A stretch of DNA of 32,548 nucleotides, from positions 1 through 32,548 of IMG/VR virus record IMGVR_UViG_3300046471_000232; one strand, 5' to 3'. The DNA is from a virus. Positions 4,105 to 20,367 of this stretch are shown piece after piece. Position 1 is the stretch's first letter. Each line of letters begins with the position of its first letter. The notes beneath the pieces are model-generated. The model had not been told where the DNA came from. It saw only the letters and a program-made list of their open reading frames with translations, and made no database searches. The position numbers and the translations under genes are program-made.

Positions 4105-4111
4105 CGTGCTG

Positions 4112-6121
4112 ATGAATGCGAGAGGGCGTATCGCGCCCTCGCCACCACCTAAACTAATAAAAGCCGACAAGGTTCCTTTTGTCGGCGCATACCCTTGGAA
4201 TGCTCCCCGTCCTGCAATCTCAAAAGAAAGACCTCTTACCCGTGATGAATTCCATCAGGGGCAAGATGCCTTACGCAAGATCCACGCGCTGCCATTTTTT
4301 CTAAGTGGCATTTTCTCAGGCCGGTATGAATATCTTAAAGAAAGCTCAGGGCTGCTGGCTGCACATCGTTACCTCATCAATGTTTTTATGCCACGGATTT
4401 GGCCTCGCATCGAGGTTGTACAGGCTAAATATGCGTTGGCCTTAAGTGGCAGAGCTAATGAAATTTTTACTGATGAGGCTGAGAGTTATCGCCAGTTAGC
4501 TGGAATGAATGATAAAGCGCTGAAACGTCTCGCTATGCAAATTTCATCCCGGCTGTTCACAGAATATGAAGAGCAGAGCGATCGGCTTCTTAGTCAGCAC
4601 AACGGGGTTCAAGCCAAGTTATTCACCGATAGCGCACAGCAGAAAATTTATGGTGAGGTTGCCGGTGCTGCCCGCGTTTTTAATATCACTCCAATGCACT
4701 GGCAAAAATACTGTAAACGCAAACTGGATATGCGCTCAGCGTTCTCCAGCATCGCGCGATTGGTAAATGATGAGTGGTGGATTCGACAGTTAAAAGCGCA
4801 GCGCACTCAATGGCGCGAATCTCTCCTGATTGCTGTTGGCGAGGTTAGTCTGCAAAAGTCTGGCTATGCCAGCAAACAGGCTATCCGGGATGTTCGGGCG
4901 CGCCGTTTAGCAAACATGGAATATCTTAAATCCTGCGATTTAGAAAACATCGAAACAGGGGAACGTATAGATCTCATCGATAAGGTTATGGGGAGCATTT
5001 CTAACCCTGAAATCCGTCGTATGGAGTTGATGAGCACTATTGCAGGTATTGAAAAATATGCCTCAGAAGTTGGTCATGTTGGCATGTTCCTCACGATAAC
5101 CACTCCCTCAAAATACCATCCAACACGCATGGTCGGGAAAAAGACTGATCGCCGCGTTAATTTCAATCATAAGTGGGATGAAGAGGCGTTTTCACCAAAG
5201 GATGGCCAGTGCTATCTGGTGAAAATCTGGGGCAAGATGCGTACAGCATTCAAAGATAACGGCATCAAGGTATACGGAATGCGCGTAGTTGAGCCTCACC
5301 ACGACGCTACACCTCACTGGCATATGATGCTGTTTTGCGATAAAGCTCACCGTCAGCCTGCCGTTGATATCATGCGCCGCTATGCACTCCAAGAAGATGG
5401 TGATGAACGGGGGGCACAAGCTCAGCGTTTTGAGTGTAAGCATTTAAATAAAGGCGGGGCGGCAGGCTATATCGCTAAATACATAGCCAAGAATATTGAT
5501 GGTTATGCTCTGGAAGGTGAGATAGACCATGAGACTGGCCGATCATTGTCAGAGACTGCCGCAGCCGTTACTGCATGGGCTTCTACGTGGCGCATCCCGC
5601 AATTTAAGTCCATTGGTGTACCAACAATGGGAGCCTATCGCGAGCTGCGCAGATTACCGCGTGGCGTGAGTATCGCTAGCGAGTTTGACGAACTTGTCGA
5701 AGCTGCAAGAGCAGCGGCAGACGGTGGTGATTTCGCTGCATATATTTCTGCGCAGGGTGGGGCGAATGTCCCACGCGATGAGCAAACGGTAAGAACCGCC
5801 CGCCAAGTGATTGATGAGTTAAACGAGTACGACGAAGAGATCCAGAAAATCATCGGCATTTATGCCCCTCATCTTGGCACTGACCTCATCCACGAAACAC
5901 GCACAACAAAATGGCGCATTGTCGCCAAGGCTGTTGAAGTTGCCGTTCATCCTTTGAATTTAATAAGCGCCTCCGGCGCGCCTCGGAGTCCTGTCAATAA
6001 CTGTGGGAATCACAATCCGAATCATCAACAGTCAGGAGTGGTTTCACTGGTTAGCAAGGATGCGAAGATGATGGGAGTGCTTAGATATAGCTTCCAAGAT
6101 GGAATGGAACTGAACCAATAG
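4112..6121 (+). CDS. A: Rolling-circle replication initiator gpA, shortened C-terminus
   Basis: HUH-superfamily endonuclease that nicks the phage origin and starts rolling-circle replication. Key sites are plain: the metal-binding HUH motif PHWHMML (H402, H404) and the paired catalytic tyrosines in GGAAGYIAKYIAKNID (Y453, Y457), matching P2 Y450 and Y454. The central body (RRMELMSTIAGIEKY, VGMFLTITTPSKYHPTR, VVEPHHDATPHWH) is very close to P2 gpA. A GTG at 4106 is an alternative start; neither has a strong ribosome site, so coupling to the gene ending at 4104 is likely. Homology stops after RSPVNNCG (about residue 631) and the protein ends 38 residues later in an unrelated tail, about 90 residues shorter overall than P2 gpA (761 aa as I recall). 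The catalytic part is intact. In P2 the nick site lies within A itself. Confidence 0.95.
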   Translation: MNARGRIAPSPPPKLIKADKVPFVGAYPWNAPRPAISKERPLTRDEFHQGQDALRKIHALPFFLSGIFSGRYEYLKESSGLLAAHRYLINVFMPRIWPRIEVVQAKYALALSGRANEIFTDEAESYRQLAGMNDKALKRLAMQISSRLFTEYEEQSDRLLSQHNGVQAKLFTDSAQQKIYGEVAGAARVFNITPMHWQKYCKRKLDMRSAFSSIARLVNDEWWIRQLKAQRTQWRESLLIAVGEVSLQKSGYASKQAIRDVRARRLANMEYLKSCDLENIETGERIDLIDKVMGSISNPEIRRMELMSTIAGIEKYASEVGHVGMFLTITTPSKYHPTRMVGKKTDRRVNFNHKWDEEAFSPKDGQCYLVKIWGKMRTAFKDNGIKVYGMRVVEPHHDATPHWHMMLFCDKAHRQPAVDIMRRYALQEDGDERGAQAQRFECKHLNKGGAAGYIAKYIAKNIDGYALEGEIDHETGRSLSETAAAVTAWASTWRIPQFKSIGVPTMGAYRELRRLPRGVSIASEFDELVEAARAAADGGDFAAYISAQGGANVPRDEQTVRTARQVIDELNEYDEEIQKIIGIYAPHLGTDLIHETRTTKWRIVAKAVEVAVHPLNLISASGAPRSPVNNCGNHNPNHQQSGVVSLVSKDAKMMGVLRYSFQDGMELNQ

Positions 6122-6299
6122 TTAAGAACATCAAATGATTTAAATTCAAACCATAGAAACATCATGTTTGAATAGAGTTCATGAATTCTTTTTTTTGGTA
6201 GATTTGTTGTTTCTGAATTATGATATTTTTCCTGAAAAAGAATTCGAGGCAATTGAAAATATACTGTTAATAGGTTTTATGATAATTAAAAGTCATTAT

Positions 6300-6343
6300 C
6301 TGCTCAACTTTATTTCACGATAAAGCTGAGCAGTGATTTTTTT
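6300..6343 (+). terminator. Terminator between A and the NACHT gene
   Basis: CTGCTCA-a-CTTTAT (6300-6313), loop, ATAAAG-c-TGAGCAG (6320-6333) forms a 13-bp stem with one mismatch, followed on the plus strand by TGATTTTTTT. It ends the early operon. The minus-strand gene stops at 6342, so the hairpin also lies just past its end, though the T tract on that strand is poor. The stretch 6122-6299 is AT-rich and shows no gene. Confidence 0.75.
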
Positions 6344-9300
6344 AATACGTATATTCGAGCCAGTCTTTGAGTTTTCCACTCTGTTGGACTGGAGCTGCTG
6401 AGCGCTCACGCCACCGAGAGAATAGATCTTGAAGTACGATTCTCATTTTAAAATTATCTTTGAATGAATTTGAAACTTCACCTATGAATGACATTTTTTG
6501 TAGTGTGTCAATCGTAGTGGCCGAAAATAAGACATATAATCCAGCTACTAGTCCTTCATTATTACCTTGGTTTAATAATGACACAAACAATTTATCAAGC
6601 TCGGCTTCAAAGAAGTAACTTACTGCCTCGGTTTTAGATGGAATATTCTGCCCCATAAAAATACTCAATGCTGATATTCTTATTGTAGGTTTCTCATAAA
6701 TGTCCCTTGCAATTTTCAAAAGGATATCATTACTTAATCCGTATTTTTCTATTTCCGTTTCAGTATAATGTACTCTCCTAGCATTTAATGAGTGGAAATT
6801 ATTGTTGTTATATAAAGTGTGTGATGAAGTAAGTACATGGGATAGCGGGATTAAAAACTCAATTTCATTAATTAGGTCAATTTTGAAAGCTTTTAGTTCT
6901 CTTGAGACAAATCTTGAGTGAATATAATCAGTGCGGATGTTTTCAAGAAATGACTTTCTAAGCTTTGATTCTTTATCAGGATGGTTCTCGAATAGTTCAC
7001 CCCACAAAGCTATATAATTTGAACTTACTTTTGGATCTGCTAAAAGGATCTCAATTATGGTTTCCTGTATCACTTTTTCATCTTTTTGAAGAGAATGGAA
7101 TTTGTTGTTTAAAGAACTCCCCCAAACATGTAAAGCCATTAATGGAAAGTGAGAACATAGTTTTTCCCATTCTTTGATATTGTATTTTTTTTCATTAAAC
7201 ATTGCCATGCTTATAGGAGATGATATTTTACAATTTTTAACCTTCTCTTTATTCATGAGGTTTTTTAAATCATCTCCATTAAAATCACTAAGTGTTAGAA
7301 TATGCTCCTTTATATTGCTTGATTCAAAGTTTATAGGAATAAGAGATGTAATTATAGTTGGTATTCCATCTGAATTATAATCTGCCACAACAAATAGATT
7401 TAAAAATTCTTTATAAGAGCCAATGTCTTTCTTGTTGGAAAATATAATAATGAGTTTCATTAACTCTAATAAAATTGAATTTTTATCTCCAGTAAACTCT
7501 ATATCTGTAAAGCTTTGTGGTTGAGTACCAGTCACCCAAGAGTGAGTATTAGAAATTATTTGCAGAATTCCATAACTGTCGGCCTTGTTTCTTTCGCTTT
7601 CATCTACTTTAAAGTCTTTTCTTTCTTCTTTAAAAATTTCAATAAGAAATTTAATGTTTGTAGCTTTAAACTCTTCACTTTCGGCACAGGTATTGAATTT
7701 TGTAAAGAAAATTTTAAATATTTTCATGCAGGAATTTAAGATTGTTATTTTTTTTGTGGTATCAAAAAGTACAATGTTAATTAATTCCTTCATGAACCAG
7801 TTGCTAGGTTGTAGTATAGTCTGAGTGTTGTTATACATATCAAAATTGGCTGACATGTCTATTATTGCATTCAGATAATAATCTGGAGAATCGATAATTT
7901 TATTTTTAACAGAAGAAAATCTTTCATGTTCTTCGGTGAGCATAATGGTTAATAGATATCCGCTTGATATATTTTCGCTGTAATCCAGCTCAAATAAATT
8001 ATCAATCATGTTATTAATTAGCCAGGCTCTAGATTGTTCTTGGTGAATAGAGTTAATTCTAGAGTACATTTCATAATCAACGACACCCCACAAAGGTTGA
8101 ATCACTTTTGAGAACTGATGTCTTATCCGTTTATCTTGCTCCAACACACCTTCAATTAGAAGTCGTAAAGCGGCAAGAGCACCTGTTGCTAAACGTTTTT
8201 TATACCCTCTGATCTTGAAATCATCAATATGATCGTCAGTCTTTGCTAATATATCTATAGCTAAGGCAAGTTCTGCTAGTCTAGTATCATTAGATAATGC
8301 GCTTAGGGCAAAGTGCACGACTTCCCGCCAATGTGAATCAGAGCAAATTAATTCTAGGCGCTCACGTAGTTCGTTAGATGCTACAGAATTATAAATAAAC
8401 TCAGCAGCAAAGAATTCTTGTAATTGTCGGATATCAAAACGAACTGTATTACTACTTTCTGGTGTGTTTACGAATACTAATCTTTCAGTTGTAGCCTCCA
8501 TCAAACTGTTTACAATTTCTGCAACGTTTCCATCTTGGAGCATTTCTGTAGTTTGCTCGGCAAGTTTCCTAAACTCAACTTTATCTAATGTAGCTTCTGC
8601 CCCATTACTATTTTCGGCTTTTGCATGAAGTGCTATGCCTAAACGATCGTGTATTGACTTAAGAAGAACATCATTTTCTTGTAAAATTTTTGATATTTTT
8701 TTATCTAAGAAATCTTTTAGACTTTCCCTTTTTTTCATTACTTTATAAAAATTACTGAAAAGCTCCCATCTTCTTTCTGGAGGCCTTCCACCATCACGCA
8801 CAACCACCGCCATAATATGTGATTGCAATGGTGTGGTCATAAGTTCTTTTACTTGGGGTGACTTCATGGCTGATTTTAAAATTTCAATAGATCGTAATCC
8901 CTCATCTTCCGCTCGGTTGTATTTTACAACTGAAGAAGCACACGACAGAGCAATTTCAGGTGGTAATGGTTCAAGCCCTACAACAGCAGATTCTAAATTT
9001 TCAAATTGACCTGAATATCCTTGTGGGCGAGTAGTGCAAAGAATAAGAACATCAGCATCAATCATTGGGCAAAGTTCATTACTAAATGTTATTATTTCAT
9101 TTGCAATTGCATCTTTAAGATCATTAGGTACCTCATCTAATCCATCAAAATTAACGAACCAAGAAAAATTTGCAAGTGCATCACAGAATTTTTCAACCGA
9201 AACATTTATTCCTGTTTTATTAAAAATTTTATTGCATATATATGTTTGAATGCTTTTTGAACCATTGCTGCTATTATACCAGTTAGCATAATCTTTCAAC

Positions 9301-10319
9301 TCGACAAAAACTGGAACTCGAGGGTTTTTCGGCCAGTATCCTGATTTAGAAGCATATTGTTGCAGCTCTTTAGCCGTTTCTATAATTGCAGGGAGAGCAT
9401 TAGGTCCATTTTCAGATAAAATAAATGCCGCTCTTTGTATTTGCGTAAAATACTGACCAGCAGTTGATTTACCTTGACCGGGTCCACCTTTTAGTAAAAT
9501 AACCCTTGCCCTGCAAGGATCTCTTGACCATGCCTTCCATCCGTCACCAAACTCTGACCAAGCTGAAGCTTTCTGGACATTACACGATGTAGAAACTAAT
9601 GATTTCATGATGAAGTCATTTTCTTCATTGTAAATATTCTTAATAGGGAGGTCTTCAAACAGTTCATAAATTTTCGGTCTTTGATCACTACCCGAACCAG
9701 CTTGTTCTAATTTAGTGTATATAAGTTCTGAGAATTGATTGACAATGAGATGGTCAATTATGTTTTTAGTTTTTTGATCTTGCCTTGTTAACTCATCATA
9801 CAATTTCGAAATTATATGCCCGGGAGTAATAAAATGACCATAATATCTACTGGCACTTTCATTGTGAGCAAGGTAATCGAGTATTTTTTTACCACCCCAT
9901 ATGTCTACTTTGACATGACCACCAAATTCATCATGCACTAATTTTTTTATTCTATCATACGAGCCTTTTGTCCCGGTGGCTGTAGGTTCAACATTCGTCG
10001 CTATAATCCAGTTATCGGGACGGGTGCGTGATCCTTTCTGAAATTCAGCGATTTCATTTTTTACTTGGCTGATGAGCCATGGTTGAGGCCTATTTGATAA
10101 TCCAGATTTTAAAAATTTTGACTGGATGTACCATGTGCCCTCCCATTGTTCAGCAGGAGTTGGATACGGTGCTTTACCAATAAGATAACCGTCCCGACCC
10201 GCATCAGGGCCTGCAGCAAATCCAGTAACACCGTTACCTAAGACCTTCAGAGCTAAAAAATTAACTAAGTGTTCAAAAGTATGTGAATCAAGTTGATTCA
10301 AGTCATATGGTGTAGGCAT
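6342..10319 (-). CDS. PD-(D/E)XK-like nuclease-NACHT NTPase, Avs-like candidate
   Basis: Large STAND-type ATPase, 1325 aa, probably an intracellular phage sensor that triggers its own N-terminal nuclease. Domains: residues 1-160, a restriction-endonuclease fold suggested by FAAGPDAGRDGYLIG (D39, D43) and WYIQSKF (Q66-x-K68), the Mrr-like acid...Q-x-K pattern; 273-436, NACHT ATPase with Walker A GGPGQGKST (K284), Walker B FVNFDGLDEVP (D392, D395, E396) and sensor TTRPQGY (R431); about 520-675, winged-helix and helical arm with the hallmark RFDIRQLQEFFAAEF (627-641) and HWREVVHFALSAL; 680-1325, helix-rich sensor region without a motif I recognise. The start at 10319 follows AAGGA by 6 bases; an upstream in-frame start would add 32 poor residues. 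The gene is far more AT-rich than the backbone and occupies the P2 tin/old slot, a known hotspot for defence genes. Kinship with Avs or other bacterial NACHT proteins is inferred from architecture. Confidence 0.9.
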   Translation of the reverse strand: MPTPYDLNQLDSHTFEHLVNFLALKVLGNGVTGFAAGPDAGRDGYLIGKAPYPTPAEQWEGTWYIQSKFLKSGLSNRPQPWLISQVKNEIAEFQKGSRTRPDNWIIATNVEPTATGTKGSYDRIKKLVHDEFGGHVKVDIWGGKKILDYLAHNESASRYYGHFITPGHIISKLYDELTRQDQKTKNIIDHLIVNQFSELIYTKLEQAGSGSDQRPKIYELFEDLPIKNIYNEENDFIMKSLVSTSCNVQKASAWSEFGDGWKAWSRDPCRARVILLKGGPGQGKSTAGQYFTQIQRAAFILSENGPNALPAIIETAKELQQYASKSGYWPKNPRVPVFVELKDYANWYNSSNGSKSIQTYICNKIFNKTGINVSVEKFCDALANFSWFVNFDGLDEVPNDLKDAIANEIITFSNELCPMIDADVLILCTTRPQGYSGQFENLESAVVGLEPLPPEIALSCASSVVKYNRAEDEGLRSIEILKSAMKSPQVKELMTTPLQSHIMAVVVRDGGRPPERRWELFSNFYKVMKKRESLKDFLDKKISKILQENDVLLKSIHDRLGIALHAKAENSNGAEATLDKVEFRKLAEQTTEMLQDGNVAEIVNSLMEATTERLVFVNTPESSNTVRFDIRQLQEFFAAEFIYNSVASNELRERLELICSDSHWREVVHFALSALSNDTRLAELALAIDILAKTDDHIDDFKIRGYKKRLATGALAALRLLIEGVLEQDKRIRHQFSKVIQPLWGVVDYEMYSRINSIHQEQSRAWLINNMIDNLFELDYSENISSGYLLTIMLTEEHERFSSVKNKIIDSPDYYLNAIIDMSANFDMYNNTQTILQPSNWFMKELINIVLFDTTKKITILNSCMKIFKIFFTKFNTCAESEEFKATNIKFLIEIFKEERKDFKVDESERNKADSYGILQIISNTHSWVTGTQPQSFTDIEFTGDKNSILLELMKLIIIFSNKKDIGSYKEFLNLFVVADYNSDGIPTIITSLIPINFESSNIKEHILTLSDFNGDDLKNLMNKEKVKNCKISSPISMAMFNEKKYNIKEWEKLCSHFPLMALHVWGSSLNNKFHSLQKDEKVIQETIIEILLADPKVSSNYIALWGELFENHPDKESKLRKSFLENIRTDYIHSRFVSRELKAFKIDLINEIEFLIPLSHVLTSSHTLYNNNNFHSLNARRVHYTETEIEKYGLSNDILLKIARDIYEKPTIRISALSIFMGQNIPSKTEAVSYFFEAELDKLFVSLLNQGNNEGLVAGLYVLFSATTIDTLQKMSFIGEVSNSFKDNFKMRIVLQDLFSRWRERSAAPVQQSGKLKDWLEYTY

Positions 10320-10446
10320 AAATTTCCTTATAAAATTATTAGCGATAAAAGTATCTTCATTGCTGATCGTGTGGAATGAAGGTTTGTTACTCAATGAATA
10401 TGACGTTCCCAACACCGATTTAGTGTTTACTAGTAAAAGAGATAGT

Positions 10447-10469
10447 TTAAAACAGTCGATTTGTTTTAA
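10447..10469. promoter_or_regulatory. Perfect dyad upstream of the NACHT gene
   Basis: TTAAAACA-gtcgatt-TGTTTTAA: two 8-base arms with a 7-base spacer, about 130 bases before the chosen start codon. Its shape and place suit a repressor site controlling this gene. No regulator gene lies beside it, and no strong -35/-10 pair could be picked, so this is a candidate only. Confidence 0.35.
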
Positions 10470-10640
10470 CGCTAATAAATTAAAATATCTACTAATTTAG
10501 AAAGGTTGTTAGAAAAATTCACATCTAGGTTGCATCAAATTGCATTTGATTTTTATAGAGGAATTTATACATTAACACCAGTATTATAAAGACTCGTGCT
10601 CGGAATGCGCTTGCATTACAAACGACAAGCAAAGCGAGCA

Positions 10641-10659
10641 GGCGTGGCGGGGATAGCAT
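10641..10659 (+). other. cos: cos, cohesive-end site of the P2/186 type
   Basis: GGCGTGGCGGGGATAGCAT matches the 19-base cohesive end I recall for phage 186 (GGCGTGGCGGGGAAAGCAT) at 18 of 19 positions and resembles that of P2. Terminase (P and M products) cuts here in staggered fashion. Its place, between the cargo region and the portal gene Q, is that of P2 cos. The flanking GCGAGCAGGCG and GCGCGCAAACC are probably part of the recognition region. Confidence 0.88.
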
Positions 10660-10752: not shown

Positions 10753-10778
10753 ATAAAAAAGGCCGTATAAACGGCCTT
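10753..10778 (-). terminator. Minus-strand terminator after the 56-aa gene
   Basis: On the minus strand AAGGCCGT-ttat-ACGGCCTT is followed by more T (TTTTATTG), a strong intrinsic terminator just 6 bases past the stop of the small gene. It prevents leftward late transcription from entering cos and the NACHT region. Confidence 0.88.
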
Positions 10779-10783
10779 AAGCA

Positions 10784-10954
10784 TTAGGCGTACTGGGTGA
10801 GTTTCCAAGTAACGGACTTTCCACTATATGGTGGGAAGCGATTACCTTTCGCGATTGGTGCAGTTGTTGTTGGTGTTCCTACAACAGCCCATACGCCACT
10901 TTCTGGGCATGATTCCCCAGTTTTACCGGTTGTTCCAAGAGGTGCTTTTGCCAT
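10784..10954 (-). CDS. 56-aa conserved-looking small protein between cos and Q
   Basis: Read directly on the minus strand: MAKAPLGTTGKTGESCPESG, then VWAVVGTPTTTAPIAKGNRF and PPYSGKSVTWKLTQYA. GGAG lies 7 bases before the ATG. The pattern GExCPxSGxWxxxGxPxTTxPIxxGxxFPP resembles short YjzC-like proteins that begin with a Gly/Cys turn and end in a W-K-L strand; function unknown. It has one cysteine and no membrane segment, and is probably a tiny beta-rich fold. It has its own candidate promoter (11095-11123), a structured leader and a terminator, the usual build of a phage moron expressed in the lysogen. It could also be read through from Q late in infection. Confidence 0.75.
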   Translation of the reverse strand: MAKAPLGTTGKTGESCPESGVWAVVGTPTTTAPIAKGNRFPPYSGKSVTWKLTQYA

Positions 10955-11167: not shown

Positions 11168-12181
11168 CTATAATTCATAATCAGTAAACCTGACCACCTC
11201 TTTTCCTACCCACTCGTTTAACTCCTTCATGCGCTCCTGCAAAGGAACCAACTCATTACGTACAAATACCTTTGCCGCCTTCTCAACATCACCAAACCCG
11301 CCGGTGTTGTTCGGGATAATGCCCATCATCTGCGGTGGCACCCGGTGCGCGCTGAGCAGGTCGTCGCGCGTCGCGTTTTTGATGTTAAAGAAATCATCCT
11401 TGGTCGCCACTTCGCTGAGGGGAATGATTTTGATCGCATCCGATTTTCCGCCGGGTGCGTGGTAGAAAATATTTTTAAAATTACCCGAACCCTTAGATTT
11501 CGTCATCATGTCGCGCAGTGCTGTCACGTCCTGCGAGTTTTGCGCCGGATCTGTTACATACATGACATAGCCCGCGTGTGCGCCGTTGAGAAAATATTTC
11601 CGACGGTACAGCGTCGCTGACTCATTGAGCCATGCGCTATTTAATGCGCTGAGGTATTCCGGCAGGCCGTACAGTTCCTGATTAATGTCCGGCTCTTGCA
11701 AATGAAATACGCTCCCCTGACCAAAGGTGTGAGGGGCTATGTAATTCTCCACGAACCAGTAAACATCTTCCTCTACGCCACGGCGCGTGTACTTGGCCGG
11801 TGATGCCTCCAGTTTGAGAAGCTGGCCGGTCACGCTCAGGCGTTTTTCGATGAACGCATTACCAAAAACAATGTAGTCCAGCGCGTAGCGGCTGAACTGC
11901 TGCTGAGAGAGTAATGGGTGAGGGATGAACGTACTCGCCAGAATATTACGCTTAACGTACATCGGCGAACTGTGGTGAACGGCGGCGCGGAAGCTTTTAG
12001 CCAACCCCGAGAAAGTGACCGGCGGTTCGTACCATTTCCCGTTGCTGAGGCATTCCAGATAATTAAGAATATCCCGGCGATCCATCACCGTGGCCGGTTC
12101 ATCAAAACGAAAAATCTCGCTTTTTTGGGTGTCGGATTGGGGCGTCAGTTTTTTATTGATGCGGTGTTTTTTACGGGTCAT
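11168..12181 (-). CDS. Q: Portal protein gpQ
   Basis: Forms the dodecameric portal at the capsid vertex through which DNA is packaged and to which the tail joins. 337 aa against about 344 in P2. It starts MTRKKHRINKK and holds family segments such as SRYALDYIVFGNAFIEK, HLQEPDINQELYGLPEYLSA (about 160-180) and LLSAHRVPPQMMGIIPNNTG (about 275-295). It lies on the minus strand behind P and is transcribed leftward with it, as in P2. Related portals are the target of Avs4-type sensors, of interest given the NACHT gene close by. Confidence 0.96.
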   Translation of the reverse strand: MTRKKHRINKKLTPQSDTQKSEIFRFDEPATVMDRRDILNYLECLSNGKWYEPPVTFSGLAKSFRAAVHHSSPMYVKRNILASTFIPHPLLSQQQFSRYALDYIVFGNAFIEKRLSVTGQLLKLEASPAKYTRRGVEEDVYWFVENYIAPHTFGQGSVFHLQEPDINQELYGLPEYLSALNSAWLNESATLYRRKYFLNGAHAGYVMYVTDPAQNSQDVTALRDMMTKSKGSGNFKNIFYHAPGGKSDAIKIIPLSEVATKDDFFNIKNATRDDLLSAHRVPPQMMGIIPNNTGGFGDVEKAAKVFVRNELVPLQERMKELNEWVGKEVVRFTDYEL

Positions 12182-19869: not shown

Positions 19870-20367
19870 ATGAATACTCTTAAGATTGTATTTATAAGTT
19901 TTCCTTTTGTTTTTTCTGGCTGTGCACACTTTGATTTTGACAAGTACTCTGATAATAGTAAGCCGGGTATAGTTTACTTTAATCCCAAACCTTACTTTCT
20001 TCTTTCAATTGATGCTAAATGTAGTTCAGTTGGGACTGTTGTAATGATGCCAGATGAGAAGATGGTTATTAGGCCGGTGTCAGGAATTGGTAATTCTGAT
20101 TTGTCCGTCAAGTTTTCACAAGGTTTTATAACTGAGTTGGGGCAAAAAAATGATACCCAGACACCAACTACAATAGCTGCTATAACCGATCTTGCAGTCA
20201 AGGCAGCAGCATTGTCTGCAACATTGTTTAGTAACAACATTCCGTTATCAAATGAAAAGGAAACGAAAGCATCACAAGAGAACACGGTTTGCACTCCTAA
20301 ATCATTCCTTTATCCATTTGAAAATGGTATTCCAGATAAAAGTAAACGTATAGAGTTTAAAATTTAA
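19870..20367 (+). CDS. Putative lipoprotein, cargo between S and V
   Basis: Unrecognised 165-aa protein with a lipoprotein signal peptide: MNTLKIVFISFPFVFSGC, where C18 follows an FSG lipobox. After processing D/F-rich residues (AHFDFDKYSDN) lead into a beta-rich body (KPGIVYFNPKPYFLLSIDAK) and a low-complexity Thr/Ala segment (TPTTIAAITDLAVKAAALSA). Two further cysteines (about 51 and 142) could pair in the periplasm. GAGG lies 5 bases before the ATG. The gene is AT-rich, unlike its neighbours, and fills the slot where P2 has orf30, so it is horizontally acquired. A role in surface change or exclusion of other phages is a guess from location and lipidation. Confidence 0.82.
   Translation: MNTLKIVFISFPFVFSGCAHFDFDKYSDNSKPGIVYFNPKPYFLLSIDAKCSSVGTVVMMPDEKMVIRPVSGIGNSDLSVKFSQGFITELGQKNDTQTPTTIAAITDLAVKAAALSATLFSNNIPLSNEKETKASQENTVCTPKSFLYPFENGIPDKSKRIEFKI

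Follow-up and report, generated by a model that had tools for sequence, protein, structure and literature searches.

A predicted nuclease-NACHT protein with a bounded variable helical region in the gpA-gpQ slot of a P2-like phage, a candidate NLR-like anti-phage system

The window analysed here, a 32,548-base virus record from a P2-like phage, carries between its gpA-like and gpQ-like genes one uninterrupted ORF for a protein of 1325 residues, which joins a predicted PD-(D/E)XK nuclease to a NACHT ATPase, NLR-like helical domains, a fast-evolving helical solenoid and a short conserved tail (Table 1). We consider it probable that this is a prophage-carried, single-protein NLR-like anti-phage system with a trigger-activated nuclease; by analogy, its most likely mode of action would be abortive infection with DNA cleavage as the output. 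An initial annotation of the window had described a single intact gene of nuclease-NACHT-helical plan, and both the gene and the plan held up, the latter through invariant motifs, domain order and structural matches. All of the motifs it had named were found, namely D39, D43, Q66 and K68 near the N-terminus, GGPGQGKST (residues 278–286), NFDGLDE (390–396), TTRPQGY (429–435) and QEFFAA (634–639). There is an alternative in-frame GTG start at 10415, but the starts of the relatives coincide with the ATG or lie close to it. The gene is AT-rich, as had been noted (GC 0.29–0.37 versus ~0.5–0.6 in the structural genes), and its third-position GC is ~0.25, compared with 0.46–0.69 for gpA and the capsid and sheath genes; with both values this low, it has the look of a foreign insert. 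It had also been described as reversed relative to its neighbours, which is correct for gpA, on the opposite strand, but not for gpQ and gpP, on the same strand. Promoter and terminator scans were overall at chance level, searches of Rfam and PHROGs returned no match, and NCBIfam had none for the NACHT gene or its 12 relatives. Just upstream of the gene, an 18-nt inverted repeat (10333–10350 and 10464–10481, 89% complementary, 113 nt between the arms) is a possible regulatory site.

Table 1. Coordinates in the window of the nuclease-NACHT-solenoid gene, its predicted parts and the borders of its slot
Feature	Position	Strand	Basis
gpA-like replication endonuclease, slot border	4106..6121	+	Phage_GPA, E 7.6e-103
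Nuclease-NACHT-solenoid gene	6342..10319	-	1325 aa; ribosome-binding-site-like AAGGAA before the ATG at 10319
Conserved C-terminal tail, residues ~1296–1325 (WRERSAAPV...DWLEYTY)	6345..6434	-	alignment
Fast-evolving helical solenoid, residues ~816–1295, candidate sensor	6435..7874	-	identity profiles, border model, structure model
Conserved NLR-like helical domains, residues 461–745, with QEFFAA	8085..8939	-	63–75% identity among relatives; aligned with NLR structures
NACHT ATPase core, residues 261–460 (Walker A K284, Walker B D392-E396, R431)	8940..9539	-	invariant residues, structure matches
Predicted PD-(D/E)XK nuclease, residues 5–170 (E16, D39, D43, Q66-x-K68)	9810..10307	-	invariant residues, Mrr_cat profile, short-Argonaute REase models in relatives, helix-strand order
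Cos-like core GGCGTGGCGGGGATAGC	10641..10657	+	pattern match; same core in L013, L016, L017
gpQ-like portal gene, other slot border	11168..12181	-	Phage_portal

Matches to Phage_GPA, Phage_portal and terminase, together with the cos-like GGCGTGGCGGGGATAGC, place the gene in the P2 tin/old slot to which it had been assigned, and the same position, between gpA and gpQ with cos adjoining, is found in L013, L015 and L017. The cos-like core occurred in no shuffle; the search pattern behind it was drawn from the P2 cos sequence. This interval beside cos is an established defence-gene hotspot whose cargo includes NLR-type genes (PMC9122126), and four of the defence systems recovered in a later functional selection sit at the same gpA-gpQ place (PMC9519451), in agreement with the earlier description of the locus as a defence hotspot. 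As the hotspot and its NLR cargo have already been described, the slot position by itself is ordinary. Other features were seen in and beyond such slots: in the window, a 56-aa ORF (MAKAPLGTTGKTGESCPESG...) lies at 10784–10954 (-) between cos and the portal gene, followed at 10759–10778 by a terminator-like hairpin, AAGGCCGTTTATACGGCCTT, with a T-run; an AT-rich 165-aa ORF lacking a Pfam match (19870–20367 (+), GC ~0.38), between the gpS-like and gpV-like genes, is likely a second cargo gene; and in L015 a PIN_12-domain gene (6266–7330 (-)) stands as a second cargo gene alongside the NACHT relative.

The NACHT ATPase, which the initial annotation had called intact, is real: K284, D392, D395, E396 and R431 are invariant in the 12 aligned sequences, giving a Walker A motif, a Walker B motif of the DGxDE form and a sensor arginine. 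The Pfam NACHT score of the single sequence is weak and below the Pfam cut-off, and five of the 12 sequences match at E ≤ 0.01; the family profile retrieves independent Pfam-NACHT proteins (E 4e-10). An AlphaFold2 model of residues 168–1325 (mean pLDDT 62) had animal NLRs as its best Foldseek matches, and VIA-align placed NOD2 at Z 13.4 (248 residues, rmsd 3.9) and both NLRP3 and NLRC4 at Z 13.2, as an NLR-like switch would be expected to, with parts of the model at low confidence. For a model of residues 1–490 the top Foldseek match was Avs3 (E 2.9e-6), and the VIA-align matches included NLRC4, NLRP9 and Avs4. These models are modest (mean pLDDT 62–63), and the VIA-align lists are dominated by the ATPase, so that they bear on it and not on the sensor block or the nuclease alone. 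The models support the NLR fold family of the switch but not its details, part of the aligned stretch being of low confidence. A PDB sequence search with the single sequence found nothing, and the PDB matches from the family profile (e.g., Rh5, E 0.006) were taken as chance.

Ahead of the ATPase, a PD-(D/E)XK nuclease very probably forms the N-terminal domain, to judge from its residues, its predicted helix-strand order and its profile matches. E16, D39, Q66 and K68 are invariant in all 12 aligned sequences, whose overall identity is 21–56%, and the model has the order helix 12–27, strand 43–49, strand 60–68 (bearing Q66-x-K68), helix 78–94 and strand 103–108; the conserved acid, the (Q/E)-x-K on adjacent strands and the helix-strand-strand-helix core that characterize PD-(D/E)XK enzymes are thus all present. 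A profile-profile comparison with Mrr_cat gave a 64% probability, the match being confined to the first helix plus the D39/D43 motif; the values were ≤3.3% in 20 column shuffles and ≤1.1% for five further alignments, those of gpA, gpQ, gpP and this protein's own NACHT and helical regions. Among the relatives there are matches to the REase portion of short-Argonaute models (best E 3.3e-9) and to the PADLOC candidate PDC-S73. Cap4/DUF4297 was rejected as the identity of the nuclease (hhalign probability 0.2%). The PD-(D/E)XK-like N-terminus proposed earlier is in this way supported as an assignment that is good but not complete, and DNA cleavage would be its predicted activity. The partial extent of the Mrr_cat match, and position 43, which is D or E among the 12 sequences and E in the distant members, would also suit a degenerate REase-fold module that serves only DNA binding or assembly while another activity or partner kills; this is improbable, since an active site that had been lost would not have kept four residues unchanged across sequences so diverged.

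A variable block follows the switch. Among eight full-length members (the close pair L010-L014 left out), pairwise identity is 57–70% over residues 1–170, 52–68% over the NACHT domain and 63–75% over the helical region, drops to 14–38% over residues 746–1290, and returns to 31–63% in the last 35 residues. The block at ~816–1295 is co-linear with few gaps, at 26–54% identity inside versus 64–87% outside, and its borders are sharp in close pairs: L017 and L021 are ~90% identical up to residue 750 and ~30% identical from 811 to 1260, while L010 and L014 go from ~90% to ~55% in the block. A two-border model placed the block from 813–829 to 1243–1296 in four of five pairs and at 730–1300 in the fifth (logLR 66–129), the value for L010-L014 being 72 versus a maximum of 8.7 in 30 shuffles. 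Among the P2-slot members the switches are 66–85% identical and the sensor blocks 23–38%. The structure model shows the block, with good confidence, as a solenoid of helices that also includes small strands, and HEAT-type proteins such as importins and CAND1 stand below the NLRs in the Foldseek list; the conserved tail (WRERSxAPV...WL) has low model confidence. The C-terminal ~650 residues had been read as one motif-less sensor starting at 680. They instead comprise three parts, NLR-like helices to ~745–810, the variable block at ~816–1295 and the tail at ~1296–1325, and because the first belongs to the conserved switch and the tail, of 30 residues, is conserved as well, what stands of the earlier reading is a candidate sensor narrowed to ~816–1295. 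An ordered region that changes fast yet stays co-linear, placed after an NLR switch, would fit a ligand-tracking sensor. Saturation at synonymous sites means that dN/dS allows no claim of positive selection. A narrow search of viral contigs for the same C-terminus on other effectors found none.

Full-length, co-linear relatives occur on a Klebsiella variicola plasmid (44% identity, near a Lit-family gene), in two Pseudomonas genomes (42–44%) and in the viral contigs L013, L014 and L015 (48, 44 and 56%, respectively). Those of L013 and L015 lie in the same P2 slot and orientation, that of L021, a cut contig, lies beside gpA on the opposite strand, and that of L014 is near a different integrase. 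Searching the viral contigs with the single sequence gave nothing, and searching with alignments found the relatives. No near copies of the window gene were found in E. coli, a more distant version being reached via L013; one version of the gene is present in 3 of 5,426 complete E. coli genomes. In E. coli prophages, too, the relatives have this P2 slot and orientation: E. coli SC467 has its relative alongside portal, terminase and capsid genes, and in the prophage of E. coli H2 (L016:8744–13981) most structural genes are lost and the portal gene is truncated with the NACHT gene intact, which hints at a benefit to the host. The family is rare: at E ≤ 1e-15, 369 gammaproteobacterial genomes yielded 2 with a match and 399 Pseudomonas genomes yielded 4, counts that include the known seed as well as distant members. 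Proteins of Actinobacteria, Priestia and Variovorax show recognisable likeness only in the first half (~residues 1–670). In two viral contigs, distant relatives (L024:5277–7647 and L025:5151–7575) have the nuclease/NACHT region read as two overlapping ORFs, reflecting either a split protein or a frameshift. L014 also has, near its relative and the integrase, overlapping genes for an AAA_21 (OLD/AbiEii-like) ATPase (8343–9752 (+)) and an HNH endonuclease (9739–10467 (+)), resembling a Septu (PtuAB)-like pair.

Among the P2-slot members, L013 and L021 group together in the gpA tree (91% identical, 100% bootstrap), whereas L017 and L021 do so in a tree of the NACHT region (residues 330–810; 100% bootstrap); as the two trees conflict, either the NACHT gene or gpA has been exchanged among phage backbones at the slot. 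Cargo at this hotspot need not be defensive, as about a fourth of P2-like phages have partition genes there (PMC9122126), and a role in prophage maintenance or regulation, such as keeping P4-like satellites, or superinfecting P2 alone, under control, could be imagined. We regard such a role as quite unlikely given the nuclease-NACHT plan and the relatives outside P2, on a plasmid and on chromosomes, that stand beside other defence-like genes.

How an anti-phage function would run can be sketched by analogy with bNACHT25 and bNACHT32, in which defence depends on a PD-(D/E)XK domain and infection leads to DNA degradation (PMC12169576); from them we take the course of trigger, switching, oligomerisation and DNA damage. 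At rest, the NACHT module would keep the N-terminal nuclease inactive, the conserved tail probably contacting the switch and helping to set the closed state. Something made by a superinfecting phage, or a host protein that infection has altered, would engage the variable solenoid, upon which the NACHT module would bind or exchange ATP and oligomerise; this would bring the nuclease domains together, DNA would be cut, and the infection would be aborted, probably along with the cell. It is possible, if rather doubtful, that the variable block instead watches a host factor or chaperone state and changes fast in escaping phage inhibitors. The block's co-linearity and few gaps, as if a single partner were kept, would agree with this, as would the requirement of bNACHT25 for host DnaJ (PMC12169576), but bNACHT25 probably belongs to a different clade, and the divergence of the blocks within the same phage slot exceeds that expected with one conserved host partner.

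Returning to a block that reads varied triggers, we tentatively suggest that this P2-phage NLR family diversifies a discrete solenoid sensor (~816–1295) between a conserved switch and a conserved tail, and that phage lineages may carry and exchange, at one slot, receptors for different triggers. Finding what triggers bacterial NACHT proteins is difficult, and the family amounts to a natural series of alleles at a single phage locus, whose closely similar switches and strongly diverged sensors are suited to chimera and escape work assigning specificity to a defined block; the tail after the sensor could form part of the lock on such receptors. Diversified sensing regions have already been described in Avs5 (PMC12931631), so a variable sensor is in itself nothing new, and what the alignments point to as the family's own features are the bounded variable sensor and the conserved tail, with the roles proposed for them as candidates.

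Compared with known systems, the 1325-aa protein has the features of a bacterial NACHT protein, and on its sequence and models we assign it as a bacterial NLR-like protein with a predicted nuclease effector, not as an Avs. The initial annotation had pointed to Avs in particular, and this kinship was not borne out: no PADLOC Avs model matched the protein at E ≤ 1 or the 12 relatives at E ≤ 0.01, although Avs3 and Avs4 (AVAST) share the plan of nuclease, STAND ATPase and helical sensor and are among the structural matches of the N-terminal model, Avs4 aligning over residues 1–450. In the 168–1325 model, it is the animal NACHT NLRs to which the ATPase core comes closer. As hotspot cargo, the gene occupies the exact tin/old slot but is unrelated to tin or old, being one large NLR-type gene. 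Short-Argonaute REases and PDC-S73 have the ~170-residue N-terminal domain in common with several relatives, but only that module, and the match of the window protein is no better than E 0.016. The protein had no NCH1-type Pfam domain at E ≤ 1. Likened by description and not by sequence, bNACHT25 and bNACHT32 (E. coli, bNACHT clade 6) are single proteins with the same order of N-terminal PD-(D/E)XK, central NACHT and C-terminal helices (PMC12169576), from which the window family differs in its long variable solenoid and conserved tail. With the animal NLRs NOD2, NLRP3 and NLRC4 the protein shares the fold predicted for its NACHT domain and the helical domains after it (Z ~13), but it has a putative nuclease in place of their CARD/PYD-type signalling domain and a helical solenoid in place of their leucine-rich repeats.
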